Shown here: one piece after another, positions 2,040 to 37,571 of the stretch | Numbering within the stretch: position 1 is the stretch's first letter | Layout of the letters: each line of letters opens with the position of its first letter | Assembly: GCF_003364255.1 (NCBI RefSeq) | Contig: NZ_NXLR01000007.1 | Span: forward strand, 1-64,000 | From: Helicobacter marmotae | Lineage (GTDB): Bacteria > Campylobacterota > Campylobacteria > Campylobacterales > Helicobacteraceae | Direction: 5' to 3' | DNA: 64,000 nt | Program-made: the position numbers and the translations under genes | Notes under the pieces: generated by a model | The model's database searches: none | What the model was told of the DNA's origin: nothing | What the model saw: only the letters and a program-made list of their open reading frames with translations

Positions 2040-4382
2040 TTAAAAGCTATAACGTAACTCCGCATAATAGCTGCGTCCAAAGCCTGCATAATAGTTAGGA
2101 TACACTTGATAAGTGCTATACCAACTATCAAAAAGATTCCTTACGCCTACATTGACTTTAAAGTCAGAAACCCCATACATCAAGCCTAAATCACTGAGCA
2201 CATAGCCATTTTTATTCATTGTTCTAGCGGTGCTATCTATACTTTTTGAGAAATACGCATTATTGAGAAATACGCTCAAAAACTGATTCTCGCTCCTAAA
2301 TACATCTGCCTCGATATTTAAAGTCGCCTTAAGAGAGGGTACATATGGGACATTATTACCCTTTAAGGTAGCATTGGCGGTATTGCTTTTAAGGATATTT
2401 GTATAGAGATACGCCACACTCTCGCTTAAGCGCAGCCACTCACTCTCAAAGAGCTCTTGAGCGGCTATAAGCTCTACGCCCGCCCTTTGTGTTTCTCCTA
2501 AATTGCTATACGTATATGCCGTGCCATGAGAAATGGAATTCACAAAAATTTCATCAAAGGTATGGGTATAAAATAAAGTAGCACTCAAGTAACTACCCCC
2601 TAAGCTATCTCTCCAGCCTAGCTCACCTGTGAGGTATTGCTCTGGTTTGACACCATTTTCTTCATTTAAGAATATCCCTCCGCTTGGACGACCACTATTT
2701 GCACTCGAGCTTGGGTCGGCATTAATCATCTGATACGCACTGGGGCTAATGAATCCTAACTCTGCTTTTGCATAAATATTCCCTGTATCGCTATATTTAT
2801 AATTTGGTGTAAGTTCAGCAGCATAGCCTAAACGCTCTTTGTGGAGGTCAAACTTTTCACTTTGATCTAAAGTTGGAAAGCTTCTCATTAAAACGGTACA
2901 CATAGTTCCAGTACAAGTTCCTAGACTATCAAAAGCCTGATTATTATCTGTCCAATAATTTGAATACTCCACTCTCACGCCCCCGCTTAGATCAAAGCTA
3001 TCATTGAAGTTATAGCGATCATAGGCATAGAGGGAGTTTGAGAGTTTAAGGGCGGTATTATCGACATCTGCAGCATAGGCATAGACTATACTTTGAGCAT
3101 TTTGTTGGATATTAAAACTCAAATTTAAAATATGATCTGTAAGATTTCTTCGTTTTGAATACTCTAAGACATTATCTAAGCCCACAATAAAGGTATTTTT
3201 CTCCGTTTTGTGCCTAAGTTTTAAATTAAGCCCTCCACCATGGTTTTGGAATCCTGCTTTGCCATTAGAGCCATTATTTTGTAAAGTAGCAGTTGTATGG
3301 CTATCTTTGGTGTATTTTAAAAGAGAGAATTGATAAAAAGCAAGGGCGTCAAAATCAAGGCTCTCGCTAAAATTTTGCGTGTAGTTAAGAGAGCTTTGCA
3401 AGGCGTCTGTCTCTGTTTTATACGTATCAGCATGAGCATAATTGCGCTCACTTCTTAATTGGCTTAAAGACTTTTCCACATAGGGGCTAGCTGTAGTGCC
3501 ACTCCCTGTAGCTAGGGTAAAATACGTCCTGGGATAGGAGCGCCACAAATGTGAATAGCTGATATTAAAATCAAGTTTGCTTGATTCATTTGGGGTGTAG
3601 AGTGTTTGGAATGCGGCATAGGTGTTTGTCGTATGATCATTGCTAAAAGCCTTTGTTTGCTTATCTTGGGAGGCGGCATTACGAGTGCCAGGTGTGTAGC
3701 CCCCGCTTAAATCCGCCCTAATAAATAGGCTTGGGCTTATCCTTTTACCTGTTGCTAGGCTTAGGGAGCCTCCTTGTAAGCCCTCTTCCTCTCCGCTTGT
3801 AGCTTTAAGGACAACCCTCGTAAAGTCCTTGCTTGGGGCTTTGGTAACGATATTTACCACCCCGCCTCTTGTACCGCTGCCATAGACCACCGCCCCACCA
3901 CCGGGGATAACCTCAATACTTTGAATATCTTCTATATCGATATTACTATATGGAGGCACGCCATGACTGGTATCAAGTAAGGAGATGGGTACACGATTTA
4001 GTAGAATCTTCACAGCACGATTCGCATCAGCACCCTGCCCTCTTAAATCAATATTTTGCCCAAAGCCAGAATTGCTAAAAGTAATTAAAGGCTGGTATTG
4101 CAAGGCTTGCTCTAGGCTTTGATAGCCTTTATTTTCTAAATCATCTTTTTCAATGAGTAGGATATTTTTAGACTCATCTACAAGTGGTAAGTCAAATCCG
4201 GTTGCTGAAGTGACAATAGCATCGAGTTTTTTGCTTTTTAAGCCTTGCTCATCAGCCCATAAAGCGCTAAAAAAGAGGTTTGCAGCACAAGTTGCGCAAA
4301 AGAAAAGTTTATAGCGCGAGAAAGCTGGAATTAAGCTTCTTTTAGGGCTATGGGGGGGGGGGATTATATGAAAGTGTGTCAT
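2040..4382 (-). CDS. TonB-dependent outer-membrane receptor, phase-variable (ON)
   Basis: A 780-residue receptor that would use TonB energy to import a ferric chelate, haem or another scarce ligand across the outer membrane. The order is: N-terminal region with a hydrophobic stretch ending near FFSALWA, a TonB-box-like DAIVTSATG, a plug domain (NILLIEKDDLENKG to GGVVNIVTKAP), then a long beta-barrel ending in the typical terminal phenylalanine (ELRYSF). I place the start at 4382 because AAGGA lies 8 bases upstream; an in-frame upstream ATG at 4409 lacks one. Nine codons into the gene is a run of 11 C (4352-4362), encoding PPP, which keeps the gene in frame here but would frameshift it after slippage. 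A Fur-like palindrome lies upstream. The substrate cannot be told from sequence. Confidence 0.9.
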   Translation of the reverse strand: MTHFHIIPPPHSPKRSLIPAFSRYKLFFCATCAANLFFSALWADEQGLKSKKLDAIVTSATGFDLPLVDESKNILLIEKDDLENKGYQSLEQALQYQPLITFSNSGFGQNIDLRGQGADANRAVKILLNRVPISLLDTSHGVPPYSNIDIEDIQSIEVIPGGGAVVYGSGTRGGVVNIVTKAPSKDFTRVVLKATSGEEEGLQGGSLSLATGKRISPSLFIRADLSGGYTPGTRNAASQDKQTKAFSNDHTTNTYAAFQTLYTPNESSKLDFNISYSHLWRSYPRTYFTLATGSGTTASPYVEKSLSQLRSERNYAHADTYKTETDALQSSLNYTQNFSESLDFDALAFYQFSLLKYTKDSHTTATLQNNGSNGKAGFQNHGGGLNLKLRHKTEKNTFIVGLDNVLEYSKRRNLTDHILNLSFNIQQNAQSIVYAYAADVDNTALKLSNSLYAYDRYNFNDSFDLSGGVRVEYSNYWTDNNQAFDSLGTCTGTMCTVLMRSFPTLDQSEKFDLHKERLGYAAELTPNYKYSDTGNIYAKAELGFISPSAYQMINADPSSSANSGRPSGGIFLNEENGVKPEQYLTGELGWRDSLGGSYLSATLFYTHTFDEIFVNSISHGTAYTYSNLGETQRAGVELIAAQELFESEWLRLSESVAYLYTNILKSNTANATLKGNNVPYVPSLKATLNIEADVFRSENQFLSVFLNNAYFSKSIDSTARTMNKNGYVLSDLGLMYGVSDFKVNVGVRNLFDSWYSTYQVYPNYYAGFGRSYYAELRYSF
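4352..4362 (-). repeat. Homopolymeric C11 phase-variation tract in the TonB receptor
   Basis: Eleven consecutive G on the plus strand (C on the coding strand) sit within the first 12 codons of the receptor gene. The length present leaves the frame open. A gain or loss of one base would stop translation early. Such tracts are the standard contingency mechanism in Helicobacter and Campylobacter. Confidence 0.9.
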
Positions 4383-7303: not shown

Positions 7304-8428
7304 TTAAACAAGCTTACCTTGCGATAATGCCTTGCGCACACGAAGAATCCCTAAAGCCAAAATCGCCCGACGCAAGGGAGTAATAAACATAAAGGGATAG
7401 CGCACATAATGCCTAAAAAGTGTCTTTAGCACTAATAATCGCGTAGCCCTATTATAATGCTTATGTAGGCTTTGATAATCTCTATCTTGCCTATAGTGCG
7501 TATTGAGTACCTCGCTTAAAATCCGCGAGCTATGCAACGCCCCACTAATGCCCTCCAGTGTGCTTGCATTAATGAATCCTGCTGCCTCACCTATGAGAAA
7601 CACCCCGCTATGCCCGCGCGGGAAATCCCGCCATTTACTAGGCTGAAGCACGAAACACTCCTCACGTTTAATGCGCTCCTCAAAAGTAAAGCCCACACTC
7701 TTCAATCGCTCAATCTGCCTCTCATAAGCCACTTTAGCCCCCCTGTGAGGATATGCCCCGCCAAAGATAAAATAACCATCTTTTGACATACTCCAGCTAT
7801 AGCTTGGGGTAAGCTCTTTATCAAAAATGCAAGAAAGCATAGGCGTATTATGCTCTTTATACCACTGCTGAATACACACAAGACTTTTTATCTTAAGCTT
7901 AGGGTAAAGCACATTACGAATATGGCTTTTCGCGCCATCAGCCCCGACCACAATGCGTGCATTAAGTGTATAAAACGCCCCATTTTGCTTAAAACTTAGC
8001 TTATAACTATCCTCTTGCCTTATCAAATCCTTAAAATGGGCATTATGATAAACTTTCACATAAGCAGGGATAAGAGACTTTAGCCATAAATCAAAGCGAT
8101 GTCTCTCCATATTGATATAGCCCTTTTGTATATATGAAGCGTGTTTATATCCAAAGTCAATGGTATTAATAGCAAAAATCTGGGGATTGACCAAAAGTTT
8201 TAGAGGGAGATTCAGCCCTTGCTTGGCTAGAGCCTTTTGCCCTCCCTCGCTTAAAAGCCCCCCGCAGGGCTTATGAAAACCTCTATCAAAGCAATCTCCG
8301 CTCTCTAGCTTTTTATCAATCACTATGACTTTTAAATGAGATTTAAGCAAGCTAGCTAAATTACTCCCTGCTACCCCCGCTCCGATAATGGCTATATCAT
8401 ATCGCCCTAAATCCTTAGCATTCTCCAT
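7304..8428 (-). CDS. FAD-dependent oxidoreductase, geranylgeranyl reductase family
   Basis: A 374-residue flavoprotein. The N-terminal Rossmann fingerprint IIGAGVAGS (residues 14-22) binds FAD. Further FAD contacts are GADGAKSHIRN near residue 162 and FLIGEAAGFINASTLEGIS near residue 277. The HKPCGGLLSE segment near residue 52 is typical of the geranylgeranyl-reductase/FixC-like group. Members reduce isoprenoid double bonds or act as monooxygenases; the substrate here is not evident. It lies 36 bases downstream of xseA on the same strand, probably in one operon. Confidence 0.8.
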   Translation of the reverse strand: MENAKDLGRYDIAIIGAGVAGSNLASLLKSHLKVIVIDKKLESGDCFDRGFHKPCGGLLSEGGQKALAKQGLNLPLKLLVNPQIFAINTIDFGYKHASYIQKGYINMERHRFDLWLKSLIPAYVKVYHNAHFKDLIRQEDSYKLSFKQNGAFYTLNARIVVGADGAKSHIRNVLYPKLKIKSLVCIQQWYKEHNTPMLSCIFDKELTPSYSWSMSKDGYFIFGGAYPHRGAKVAYERQIERLKSVGFTFEERIKREECFVLQPSKWRDFPRGHSGVFLIGEAAGFINASTLEGISGALHSSRILSEVLNTHYRQDRDYQSLHKHYNRATRLLVLKTLFRHYVRYPFMFITPLRRAILALGILRVRKALSQGKLV

Positions 8429-15482: not shown

Positions 15483-16076
15483 TTGTCGTTATCAAACTCC
15501 CCTCAACGTGACAAACTCATTTCCCTTGTAAGGTAATTTTGTCTATAGGTTAAAATTATTGTTATGTCTTTGCCCTCTATATAATAAGGCTAAAATCGCT
15601 TTTTAAGTCTCTAGTAATTCTTATAGAGATATTTGGGTCGCTATGCTCTCTGAATATAACAAACTTTGCTACCCGCAAGGGAAACCCACACATAATAAAC
15701 ACCTGCAAAGGAAGTTATTTTGTCATTCCAAGCATTGTGAAGAAACTTCGCCCGAATCACCAGCGAGTCCGTTATTTTGTCATTCTGAGGGGCTTCAGCC
15801 CCGAAGAATCTCTAAACGAATCACTAGTCGCTAAAAGAGATTCTTCGCCTGTTTCACAGGCTCAGAATGACAAACTAACAACATTTACTAGAAAGCCCAC
15901 AGAGATTCTTCACCCCTTGCAGGGGTTCAGAATGACAAAATAATTTCCCTTACGGGTAGCCAAGTTTGTCATTCTGAGGGAAGGCAACGCCTGACCGAAG
16001 AATCTCTACCCGAATCACTAGTCACCAAAATAGATTCTTCGGCTTTTGCAAAGCCTAAGACATGACAATAAATCCC
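15483..16076. repeat. Cluster of dispersed palindromic repeats upstream of flaB
   Basis: Several units built from GTCATTCTGAG...GAAGAATCTCT, a spacer with ACTAGT, and the inverted AGAGATTCTTCG...CAGAATGAC. The clearest full unit is 15776-15874. Mini-hairpins inside the arms include GGGGCTTCAGCCCC (15789-15802), GCCTGT-TTC-ACAGGC (15847-15861) and CCCCT-TGC-AGGGG (15913-15925). Short open frames run through the cluster but have no ribosome binding site and read the same repeat peptide seen at other loci, so I call no gene here. Confidence 0.85.
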
Positions 16077-16080
16077 AAAT

Positions 16081-16282
16081 GTCTTTCAGCAGTGAGATAT
16101 ATTCTCATCACAGGATAAAATTAAATCGCACGAAGTGCCACCTCTTAAAGCGTCGTCGGGGCGGGGGATATATAAGGGGGCAAGAATATTATTATGGGGT
16201 TGGAGCTTGCCTGCACGAGCGAAGCTCTTGCCCCCATTATTTTATAAAACTTTGCACATTCAAGCCCCTCCCCCTTATAGAA
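16081..16282. repeat. About 200-bp non-coding module, copy 1 (copy 2 at 62513-62705)
   Basis: This segment shares GATAAAATTAAATCGCAC, a GGGGGATATATAAGGGG stretch, ATTATTTTATAAAACT and a final CCCCT-rich CCTTATA with 62513-62705, in the same order and spacing. In this copy GGGGGCAAGA (16176-16185) pairs perfectly with 16226-16235. Both copies are bracketed by the dispersed palindromic repeats. It could be a decayed mobile element or a structured RNA. Confidence 0.55.
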
Positions 16283-16309
16283 AAAGAAAAAAGAGAATCG
16301 CTAACGACT

Positions 16310-16437
16310 CCGTTAGTTTGTCATTCTGAGGGAGCACGAAATGGAGGCGAAGAATCTCTCTTATCCGCTAGAGAATTGCTTTCAAAAACACCAAAAAGCA
16401 CGACTAGTGATTCTTGCAGAGATTCTCCGCCCCCAAA
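16310..16437. repeat. Further dispersed palindromic repeat unit
   Basis: Another TTTGTCATTCTGAGGGAG...GAAGAATCTCT half unit with a CGACTAGTGATTC spacer and an inverted half ending CAGAGATTCTCCGCC. Together with 15483-16282 it fills the non-coding gap between topA and flaB. Confidence 0.75.
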
Positions 16438-16527
16438 GTCGCTAGATAAATAAACTACATATTTTCTGCCCCGCATCAATTATCACTTCCACACTTCTGT
16501 AATACTAAAACTCAATGCCTCTAAATA

Positions 16528-31388: not shown

Positions 31389-32270
31389 ATGATTATATCT
31401 AGCGGGAGCGTAGCGAGCGAAGAATCTTTGCTAAATTCACCAGCGACTCCACCTCTTTGCCATCACAAACCCCTGCAAGAGGGTGAAGAATTGCTGTTAG
31501 AATTGTTGGATTCATTGTCATATCTTTGGGCTTCAGCCCTGAAGAATTGCTGTGGGCTTTCTAGTAAAGGCTGTTAGTTTGTCATGTCTAAAGCTTGAGA
31601 ATCAAGCGAAGAATTGCTTTTAGAATTGCTAGAAACTCTGCCACTATTGTCATTCTGAGGCTTTGTAAAAGCCGAAGAATCTCTTTTAGCGACTAGTGAC
31701 TCAGGTAGAGATTCTTCGGTTGGGCTTTGCCCGCCCGCGAGACATGACAAAATAACGGAGTCGCTGGTAATTCGGGCGAAGTTTCTTCACAATGCTTGGA
31801 ATGACAAACTAATTTCCTTTGTAAGGTAATTTTGTCTTGCAGATTGGACTTATTGTCATTCTGAGCCTGCATAGCAGGCGAAGAATCTCTGTTAGAATTG
31901 CTAGAAACTCTGCCACTATTGTCATTCTGAGGGAGTGGTAATGACCGAAGAATCTCTGCAAGAATCACTAGTCGTGCCTTTTGGTGTTTTTGAAAACAAT
32001 TCTTCGCCCTTTATTGGGGGCTTGGAATGACAAACTAACTGCCTTTCTAGTGTTCTGTTAAGGAGTCTTTAGTAGATAAGAGAGATTCTTCGGTCGGGCT
32101 CTGCCCTCCCTCAGAATGACAAACTTGGCTACCCGCAAGGGAAATTATTTTGTCATTCTGAACCCCTGCAAGGGGTGAAGAATCTCTGTGGGCTTTCTAG
32201 TGATTCGGGCTGAGATTCTTCGCTACGCTCAGAATGACAAAATAACTGCCTTTCTAGTGATTCTAAAACT
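31389..32270. repeat. Large cluster of dispersed palindromic repeats
   Basis: Nearly 900 bases of head-to-head and tandem units of the GTCATTCTGAG...GAAGAATCTCT family. Mini-hairpins include GGCTTT-GTA-AAAGCC (31659-31673), GCCTGC-ATA-GCAGGC (31865-31879) and ACCCCT-GCA-AGGGGT (32162-32176). The cluster starts two bases after the znu operon and ends at the 122-bp repeat abutting the R-M gene. No credible gene lies in it. Confidence 0.9.
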
Positions 32271-32273
32271 TCC

Positions 32274-32395
32274 AAGATTTGCGGTGGGGCTTTGAGGGTT
32301 TTTAGAAAATTTTGGGGGTGAGGCTAGGCTGTGCGCCTGCGAACCCTCAAAATTTTCTAAATCGCTTGAATGCCTACCCAAAGCTGAAGTTTCCC
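32274..32395. repeat. 122-bp direct repeat, copy outside the R-M gene
   Basis: Matches 35661-35782 with a single mismatch over 122 bp. Internally TTTAGAAAATTTTG (32301-32314) and its complement (32348-32361) form a 14-bp perfect stem. It lies four bases beyond the stop codon of the R-M gene, between that gene and a palindromic-repeat cluster. Confidence 0.9.
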
Positions 32396-32399
32396 CCCT

Positions 32400-35300
32400 T
32401 TAAACTTCAAGCACCTCATATTTAGGCATACCCCCTATCACCTCCACACTCCTTACACTCATCTCTATCACGCTTAAAAGCAAGTTAAGCGCATATCTCC
32501 CGCCTTTTAGCCCAGCTAATGCCCCCTCTTGGCTCACATATAAATTCGGGTCATTAACTATCCCGCTTTTAGTATCAACACTCACTGCATAGCGATCCAT
32601 TATCCACTCTATCGCACTTTTGCCATTCACTACATATTCATACGCCTTTGGGGGGATATTCACAATAGCAATTTTCTCATTAAAGAGAATAGTATCTGTG
32701 ATACCTTTTGTGCGAAATTTCAACTTATCTATCCTAAAGTCATTCTCGCCTAGATTCGCTAACTCTGCTGCTGCCATCTCTCTCACATTGTTAGCAAATA
32801 GCCCCTTAGCACTCTCTTTTGATTCTCTTAAATCCTTTGCCAAACACGCAAAAGCCCCACAAGGAGCGCTAAAATCGCCCTTTTCTACCCAAGCCTCATA
32901 GTTTAAATGCAGGCTTGCTAGCTCCCTCCCTGCTTTCTCAAAGCCAAAAAAGTCTTTCATAAAAGGAATTCTAGGCAGCATCTTGCTCAAATTATCTTTA
33001 TACTTTGCCTTATAAGTGGGGTGGTTAAGCAAGGCATAAATATAATAAAATATAGAATCTTTGCTTATCTCACAGCGATAAATTGCAGATTCTGCACTCT
33101 CGGCTCGGTCATTTAGGCTTACTAAACTCCCTTCGCCTCGAGCTTGAAAAGCTTTGCTTTCTTTAGTAAAACTACAATTTCTCATCTGTGATAAAAGCAA
33201 AGTAGAATCCCCTGCATTGCAAGGTGCTTTATACTCTGGGTGAATTTCCCAAAATGCTTTATACACTTCCCTAAATCTAGCTAACGCCTCATCTCTTATC
33301 GCGTCTTTGCGGTGATAAAAGCTTGATTGTGGATTATCCTGCATTTGCTTGTATGTAGCCTCACTTATGCCCTTAAGCAAAGCTTCTTCTTTAGAGATTA
33401 TAGAATCAAGCTCTTCATAATAATAGAGGGGGAAACATTGGGAATTTTGCAAAAGAGCATATTCTATTATATAGCTAGTCATAAGAGCCGAAAATTCTTT
33501 ATTGCTTCCTCTGCCTACTACACAAATAGTTAAATTTAATAAATTACAACTAGGATACAAGAGGGACATTTTGTAGGTGCTATGAAATAAACTTTTATCA
33601 TAATATGTTGGCATTTTGCAAAATGGGCGATAAAATGAACTTTGAATCTTTTCAGAATCAAACACAATTCTAAAATTCTTACTATAGCTGCTTTTAAGAT
33701 TATCTGTCCATTTAATCTTTGTCTCATCCATAATTGGCTGATAACCAGCATCTTGCTCCCTTTTAGCTACCTCCGCATTGTAATTTGCTATCATAAAACG
33801 CATATTAGATTCTAGTTCTTTGCGTGAGAAGTTATATATCCAAGAATCGCGATTACTTTTAACACCAGCAGAAAACATTTCAAAAATATCTACATAATCC
33901 TCTTGCAAGAGTTCAGAATCTAGCTTATCTTTATTCTTTATATTCTTAAGTGTTTGCAGAGATTTGAGTTTGCTATCAGTATTCCCTATAGGCATAAATG
34001 CCATAAAGCTATAATCTCGCTGATTAATCCAATCATAATCTTTATTGGGCTCTATTTTACTCCAAAGCCCTTGCGTATCTAAAGTTTCTATAGACTTAAG
34101 GGTGTTTAAAGTATTTAGTTTCTCTTCCCTAGATTTATAATCCCCAATATCATAGTAATAAATTGCTGCTTTGGAATGAGGTACTCCCTTAGAATGGCTC
34201 GTCATTTTGTCATTCTGAGCTTGAGAATCAAGCGAAGAATTGCTGTTGGCGACTAGTGATTCGGGTAGAGATTCTTCGGGCATAAAGCCCTCAGAATGAC
34301 AAAGTAATTTCCCTTGCGGGTAGCAAAGTTTGTCATTCTGAGGGAGTGAAACGACCGAAGAATCTCTCTTAGCGACTAGTGATTCTTTAAGAGATTCTTC
34401 GCTTTCTTGTGAAAGCGAAGAATCACAAACTTCGAAAATTTCTGGTGAATCAAATAGCAATTCTTCGCATCCACTTTTAATAAGTAGCACAATAGCCGCA
34501 GGTGTCTTAGAGCCCGAATCAAAGAATCCTCCTCCCTCTTTTTTTCTAAGCTCACCTGCTGTTCCTGCATTCCCCCGTAAATTAAAGATATAAATATAGT
34601 CAAATTCAGATGCTAAAGACGCCCTAAAGCCATCATCAGTGTTGTTATCAATAAAGCTACCATTTGTGATAAAGCCTATAATCCCTCCGCTCTCACCAAT
34701 TCTATCGCTACAATAACGTATAGCAAGTTTAAAGCTATCATAACTTGCATTTGTTGTGCTTGTTGCAATAGATTCTTGCTGATAAGTCTCTGCGATTCTT
34801 TGCTCTAAATATGGATATTCTGTATTTTGATTATTATCATTGGCACTTTCTTGCCCGGTCGAATATGGAGGATTCCCTACAAAGACTTTAAAATCGGTGT
34901 TTTTAAATTCTGTGATTTTTTGATAATTTTTTTTAAAATATTCTCCCTGATAACTCTCACTCTCTCGCTTAGCAATATGCACCTTAAAGCCCTTAGAATC
35001 TGGCGTGTAGGTATTAAAAGTGTCGGTAAAAAGGAGATTATCCATAAGGATATAATCTTGCTCTTGTGGATTTGCTTTATCCAAGTCTCCTATGTGGTTA
35101 GGGATTTTGTCATTCTTCGCTTGATTCTCAAGCGAAGAATTGCTTTTAGGATTGCTAGAAACTCTGCCACTATTGTCATTCTGAGGGAGTGAAACGACCG
35201 AAGAATCTCTGTGGGCGACTAGTGATTCCTTTAGAGATTCTTCGCTTCGCTCAGAATGACAAAGTAACCGCCTTTCTAGTGTTTCTGTTAAGGAGTCTTT

Positions 35301-37571: not shown

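Follow-up and report, generated by a model that had tools for sequence, protein, structure and literature searches.

A Type ISP restriction-modification gene whose methyltransferase carries two long inserts of dispersed palindromic repeat DNA was analysed in the first 64,000 nt of contig C58 of the Helicobacter marmotae genome (G000; an assembly of 1.96 Mb in 61 contigs). This stretch is called the window, and its features are collected in Table 1. The domain set of a Type ISP enzyme was found with Pfam: an Mrr nuclease, a superfamily 2 (SF2) helicase, a coupler, a gamma/Eco57I methyltransferase and an ISP specificity domain. The open reading frame (ORF) with the nuclease and the N-terminal helicase part is out of frame with the remainder of the gene at a tract of 11 G (G11) in this assembly. 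The closest PDB chains are LlaGI (5ffj) and LlaBIII (4xqk), which the window enzyme resembles in domain order and by homology of the methyltransferase and target-recognition parts. The gene is that of a Type ISP enzyme, with restriction and methylation activity predicted from its sequence.

Table 1. Features of the Type ISP locus and of related repeat loci (window coordinates unless a locus is given; "ca." marks approximate limits)
Feature	Position	Strand	Basis or remark
Type ISP restriction-modification gene, two overlapping frames	32400-38712	-	ORFs, Pfam, G tract, nearest solved chains
Upstream ORF: Mrr nuclease (Mrr_cat_2), ResIII	37732-38712	-	Pfam
Downstream ORF: Helicase_C, ISP_coupler, Eco57I-type methyltransferase, Type_ISP_C	32400-37571	-	Pfam
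G11 tract separating the two ORFs	37742-37752
Insert 1, 226 aa, methyltransferase loop between motif I and NPPY	35106-35783	-	Repeat comparison, orthologues
Insert 1, palindromic array	ca. 35106-35530	-
Insert 1, linker module	35531-35652	-
Insert 1, in-frame copy of 122-bp element (ETSALGRHSSDLENFEGSQ...)	35653-35782	-	Second copy 32266-32395, just beyond the stop codon
Complete head-to-head dimer inside insert 1	35175-35260	-	TTGTCATTCTGAG-CGAAGC-GAAGAATCTCT, 22-nt spacer with ACTAGT, inverted unit with 14-nt inner hairpin
Insert 2, ca. 92 aa, second methyltransferase loop between VLLIK and IYYYDIGDY	34194-34469	-	Repeat portion ca. 34195-34440
Third dispersed element, in specificity domain (QMRNCSF...ARGEGSLVSLNDRAESAESAIYR)	ca. 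33063-33209	-	99% over 77 nt with G008:C5
Intergenic palindromic array downstream of ISP gene	31390-32265
Intergenic palindromic array upstream of ISP gene	38880-39450
Intergenic palindromic array	15600-16450
Intergenic palindromic repeats	62420-62790
RNase R ORF with two in-frame repeat arrays and a complete GIY-YIG domain	L037:3995-7933	-	Plain RNase R of 650-700 aa in congeners

Repeat-derived blocks occupy about residues 597-823 and 1034-1126 of the ISP protein, and the remainder of the translation is normal. Both inserts are stop-free and in frame, and the ORF at 32400-37571 (-) stays open for 1723 codons. An earlier reading of the same DNA, made without database searches (the sequence-only reading), had described repeat DNA inside the gene, open throughout and identical in kind to the filling of four intergenic gaps. 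This description was correct. The repeat DNA runs over 35106-35783 and about 34195-34440, and the same repeats lie between genes near 15.6-16.4, 31.4-32.4, 38.9-39.4 and 62.4-62.8 kb. The encoded peptides, of which SLVAKRDSSVVSLPQNDK is an example, recur in other proteins of the genome. The complete dimer in insert 1 translates as CHSERSEESLKESLVAHRDSSVVSLPQND.

Insertion is shown by comparison with orthologues. The orthologue of Candidatus H. avicola, taken from a metagenome-assembled genome (MAG), has neither insert: 132 and 156 nt separate its anchor motifs, compared with 840 and 429 nt here, and both differences are multiples of three. The distance from DPF (motif I) to NPPY, which had been estimated at about 360 residues, measures 362 here. 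Orthologues are shorter there, with 290 residues in H. canis, 266 in the congener G008, 183 in H. japonicus and 127 in Ca. H. avicola. At site 1, where the window enzyme has about 260 residues, LlaGI has about 22; at site 2, a short turn of LlaGI corresponds to about 100 residues here. In H. japonicus, G008, H. canis and H. cinaedi, both loops hold other sequence, often other repeats, and different palindromes can be recognised there (CCGTCATTGCGAGGCGATGAAATCGCCGAAGCAACC and TTTGTCATTTTGAGCGAAGCGAAAAATCTCA in H. cinaedi, GTCATTGCGAGGCGATACAATCGCCGAAGCAATCC in H. canis). The segments are not common to all orthologues, since one lacks them and others carry different ones. Because differing repeats lie in the same two loops across species, these loops have been occupied repeatedly by different dispersed repeats. 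The two surface loops of the methyltransferase, which the insertions would lengthen, are tolerant landing sites, and certain enzyme loops can thus accept unrelated mobile repeats again and again.

The repeat unit is TTGTCATTCTGAG - variable inner hairpin - (C)GAAGAATCTCT. Its stem begins with 5 bp (ATTCT/AGAAT), followed by tandem G.A mismatches and an inner part that varies from 6 to 19 nt; the loops have 3-4 nt, and the tail is CTCT. Copies carry a TGTC tag, and GTC is invariant in the aligned unit set. The inner part is a covarying hairpin: in 12 distinct variants of one length class 100% of cells are paired, 5 pairs are changed on both sides, and the covariation score of the inner stem is 0.474 compared with 0.172 after shuffling. 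Units with exact arms, defined as GTCATTCTGAG-N-GAAGAATCTCT, number 343 in this genome, 1 in the congener G005 and 0 in nine other congeners, with a control count of 0. They are present in 18 of 397 Campylobacterota genomes, and the next highest count is 20. A fuzzy unit pattern gave 228 matches in the first sequence set, and the reversed-pattern control gave 0. These control counts exclude chance as the source of the repeat, which has been massively amplified in this Helicobacter lineage specifically. No Rfam match and no tandem repeat (tandem repeat finder) was found in the window, and the composite repeat matched none of the plasmid records. The sister pattern GTCATTGCGAG..GAAGCAATC was considered as a family of equal size and rejected, as only 12 such units occur across the genus, none of them in this genome. 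Upstream of many isolated units lies another repeated stretch, GGGGGCACTAACTTTTACTTTTCTACCCTTTTGGGTGGTTTGG, beside short G tracts.

In about 1.3 Mb, 46 head-to-head dimers were found. Their spacer is exactly 22 nt (37 dimers) or 23 nt (9 dimers) long and contains ACTAG, and two identical hairpins are never combined. A head-to-head heterodimer with such a spacer would be the mobile form. The segments could instead be thought of as native disordered linkers of the host proteins, made similar by recombination and not mobile DNA. Loop lengths do vary in all ISP orthologues compared, the 122-bp module and like elements are common to unrelated genes, and Helicobacter recombines readily. We consider this origin highly improbable, since most of this DNA lies between genes, it is organised as dimers of covarying hairpins at fixed spacing, and congeners have almost none of it; one orthologue has no linker at all. 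Very probably, a mobile, non-autonomous, GTC-tagged palindromic element, of the type of repetitive extragenic palindromes (REPs) and Rickettsia palindromic elements (RPEs), was amplified in this Helicobacter lineage, and the inserts are arrays of it.

Units inside genes keep strictly to the reading frame. All 74 ORF-internal units obey one rule of strand and length, with an inner length of 0 mod 3 in 47/47 same-strand units and of 1 or 2 mod 3 in 27/27 opposite-strand units, a rule that is partly ascertained because genic units were defined by open ORFs. Total dimer length is 0 mod 3 in 15/15 genic dimers and in 24 of the 31 intergenic ones (intergenic P about 6e-7 against one third). Inner hairpin A is 6, 9, 12, 15 or 18 nt long, and A-side lengths of 6, 9, 15 and 18 nt account for 28 of the 31 intergenic dimers. 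Inner hairpin B and the spacer compensate each other, 14 nt going with a spacer of 22 nt and 13 nt with one of 23 nt. Codon compatibility between genes could stem from a few founder dimers. Several hairpins that all change in steps of three are better explained by translated states in the family's past, and the dimer lengths suggest that the family has a history of translation.

The arrays were also found in other host genes. In 1.24 Mb of long contigs, 11 repeat clusters lie within ORFs and 72 outside, although ORFs make up 91% of the non-repeat sequence. So few clusters in ORFs mean that insertions into genes are mostly purged; the arrays lie chiefly between genes, and those that persist within genes are in frame, free of stops and placed in loops or linkers. 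ORFs with repeats near the C-terminus or a poly-G tract (for example L044 and L048) were left out of the internal-insertion count, as they resemble read-through into adjoining repeats. RNase R with its in-frame block has 1312 aa (648-698 in congeners), and a HemW-like radical-SAM protein has 527 aa (mostly 369-414 in congeners). In-frame arrays also lie in a linker of the M99 carboxypeptidase and in a Type III Mod, both without the block in congeners. An MmeI-like enzyme has arrays at two sites, one of which was shown to be absent in G008. In the congener G007, a GTCATTGCGAG palindrome lies at G007:C1:823697-823728, between two matched parts of the Type III Mod gene, in the region that the array occupies in this genome (L135).

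By inspection, restriction-modification genes are over-represented among the hosts. In other Campylobacterota, sporadic unit copies occur in the ORFs of two HsdS proteins, McrC, a Type III Mod and a glycerophosphotransferase. Such genes are frequent hosts, and phase variation is not established as the reason. The sequence-only reading had supposed that OFF periods of the phase-variable ISP gene would relax selection on the inserts. This part of it was not supported, since in-frame arrays in RNase R, HemW, M99, Type III Mod and others make such relaxation unnecessary. No phase-variation tract was seen in the RNase R, HemW-like and M99 genes, for which no systematic examination was made.

These hosts also bear on whether the ISP gene is a decaying pseudogene, in which repeats piled up without selection and the frame stayed open by luck. 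In this assembly its two halves are read in different frames across the G11 tract, and the orthologues of H. cinaedi and a sheep MAG have frame breaks at the same two loops. Decay is nevertheless unlikely. All ISP domain models and catalytic motifs are retained over about 1450 non-repeat codons with no other stop, every genic unit is in frame, and the same in-frame arrays occur in RNase R, HemW-like and M99 genes that no examined congener lacks. A gene that has decayed in every strain is not what was found. In H. cinaedi, the insertion at site 1 of the ISP gene contains a C13 tract (L083, about 7960-7975), so that the insertion itself carries a possible phase switch.

Several points weigh against reading the inserts as arrays of a mobile element in a working enzyme, in addition to the ascertainment of the genic rule and the possible founder effect. 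Neither a target-site duplication nor a same-species empty site was found. The ISP protein with its inserts is predicted from the DNA sequence to be made and active. In an assembly of 61 contigs, array lengths could be misassembled. Structure prediction, which had been proposed as a way to recognise disordered loops, gave a pLDDT (predicted local distance difference test) of about 25-33 for the inserts, but most of the core also scored below 50 (mean 39.6). With so poor an overall model, disorder of the inserts is weakly suggested.

Palindromes that code for protein are already known, and the window case is a new, extreme variant. Di Nocera et al. (2013; PMC3733652) defined the CGTC-tagged REPs, a superfamily that includes Neisseria dRS3 and RPE-4/6, and gave intragenic cases including the latter; Helicobacter goes unmentioned in that paper. 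The window repeat is similar in its GTC tag (TGTC variant), a hairpin starting with AT, intragenic copies and the lack of an associated Y1 transposase. It has the unpaired CGTC (or TGTC/CCTC) tag at one end and occurs mainly as head-to-head dimers. However, CGTC REPs have a stem of 8-9 bp from complementary AT, a loop of 4-5 nt and a CCA tail, in contrast to the 5 bp, mismatches, variable inner stem, shorter loop and CTCT tail seen here. The CTGAG family of the window has no CCA tail, whereas the sister GCGAG family in Helicobacter has GCAATCCA. The window repeat belongs with the CGTC-REP/Rickettsia-palindrome kind, outside the strict CGTC definition.

RPE-1, RPE-4 and RPE-6 are lineage-specific dispersed palindromes that lie in frame in unrelated genes and in spacers (PMC3733652). 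The same in-frame intragenic spread is found here, as the sequence-only reading had proposed, although the genus is another and the likeness is one of arrangement. REP-encoded clusters of R. conorii or Thauera have 43-82 aa (PMC3733652), whereas here a single loop of the ISP enzyme holds 226 aa and RNase R several hundred, and the dimers fall into codon-compatible length classes. Inverted repeats are also translated in protein genes of nematomorph mitochondria (PMC6649704); those genomes are unrelated, and the abstract describes no dispersed bacterial family. Our findings add Helicobacter to Rickettsia as a source of protein-coding palindromes, on a far larger scale, and the dimers here are codon-compatible outside genes as well.

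GTAG REPs and REPINs are likewise non-autonomous palindromic dimers with a gene that they flank, RAYT. The Y1/RAYT transposase domain (PF01797) is absent from this genome, with positive controls, which rules it out as the mover of the repeat. The candidate partner here is a GIY-YIG nuclease. PF01541 (GIY-YIG) matches residues 382-454 of the RNase R ORF, in frame within the repeat array. An alignment of homologues has invariant Y, G, R, E and N columns, corresponding to conserved Y..YxG, R, E and N residues. No ATG was seen ahead of the first motif in the RNase R array, and no NCBIfam model matched the nuclease. We take it to be a single-domain, COG2827-like enzyme.

The only other congeners that match the GIY-YIG segment are G007 and G005, and in both the gene is flanked by GTCAT palindromes. 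Of 14 homologues sampled from plasmid-collection records, 8 are bordered on both sides by [CT]GTC-tagged hairpins no more than 150 bp away; 30-kb control stretches of seven of those records contain 0.01-0.09 such units per 300 bp. The usual plasmid layout is REP(+) - GIY-YIG gene - REP(-), the gene occupying the place of the dimer spacer. A set of viral contigs, independent of the plasmid set, was found with an alignment query, as the Helicobacter sequence alone gave no match. Close homologues in this set have a unit within 200 bp in 25/49 cases and on both sides in 14/49, some contigs being near-duplicates and a few matches chance-like. Distant phage-type GIY-YIG genes have one within 200 bp in 1/15 cases and on both sides in 0/15 (background 0.10 per 200 bp). 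Contig L129 has the exact CTGAG unit of the window on both sides of the GIY-YIG gene. No homologue was found in phage records.

The flanking of GIY-YIG genes by palindromes is a statistical association, not a universal one. REP-flanked GIY-YIG genes include those of Azospirillum and Shinella. Against a role of the nuclease in mobilisation, 6/14 plasmid loci do not have palindromes on both sides, and within 200 bp of about half of the viral loci there are none. The background is also underestimated by the preference of REPs for intergenic DNA, and the nuclease might be cargo. Chance would hardly place units on both sides. On this correlative evidence, the GIY-YIG nuclease is a candidate mobiliser of GTC-tagged palindromes, and the COG2827-like enzyme may be, or may have been, the one that mobilised the window repeat.

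Another possible explanation is that the repeat spread solely by recombination or gene conversion after an early founder insertion, without a dedicated enzyme and with the GIY-YIG gene as a passenger. Array pieces are mosaics of one another, 63 of 71 genic units have an inner hairpin in common with intergenic units, and the genome has no Y1 transposase. We find this account possible but less likely than not, as cognate palindromes stand head-to-head around GIY-YIG genes in alpha-, beta- and gamma-proteobacteria, and related ones border the gene in three Helicobacter genomes, in both cases far above background. If the repeat is mobile, as we believe, its arrays would have grown by repeated insertion together with recombination between copies.

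CGTC REPs appear to have no dedicated transposase, and CGTC REPtrons were suggested to have disappeared (Di Nocera et al. 2013, PMC3733652). A GIY-YIG gene flanked by CGTC REPs in several proteobacterial classes is a concrete, testable candidate for this missing transposase, and it is our most consequential result. Tentatively, we propose that GTC-tagged palindromes (CGTC REPs and their Campylobacterota relatives) may represent a new class of mobile element in its non-autonomous state. The autonomous form would be REP - GIY-YIG nuclease - REP, the nuclease replacing the HuH RAYT in the role that the latter has for GTAG REPs. In this genome, codon-compatible dimers would have colonised protein loops, especially of restriction enzymes, and an autonomous copy would lie in frame within RNase R. 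A literature search, which reached few subscription papers or preprints, found nothing linking GIY-YIG to extragenic palindromic repeats, and novelty is provisional to that extent.

Other dispersed elements occur in the ISP gene. The 122-bp repeat that the sequence-only reading had counted with the insert does lie within it at 35653-35782, but it is a separate, genus-wide element, not the palindromic repeat, and is 94-99% identical between unrelated genes. The two window copies are 98% identical. Together with the linker, the element shares 94% identity with a copy that G008 has in an MmeI-like gene and 96-99% with further copies in the H. marmotae genome (C15 99%, C21 98%); the segment in the ISP orthologue of G008 reaches only about 70%. 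This higher identity to unrelated genes indicates that the 122-bp element moves independently of its host gene. A 47-kb contig of G008 (L137, G008:C6) has at least 10 copies of 122-bp-type elements, mostly outside long ORFs. The third element, in the specificity domain, has dispersed matches in 9 of 11 genomes of the genus and behaves like the 122-bp element. In H. japonicus, a 1540-codon ORF (L036:2811-7433, minus strand) combines GMP synthase halves, three GNAT acetyltransferase domains, a 3-methyladenine glycosylase and a 122-bp-type element, and looks like guaA with genes inserted in frame.

Elsewhere in the window, positions 1-1817 hold direct and inverted repeats of 54-104 nt of unknown nature. 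A second G11 tract lies at 4352-4362 and may mark a further phase-variable gene.
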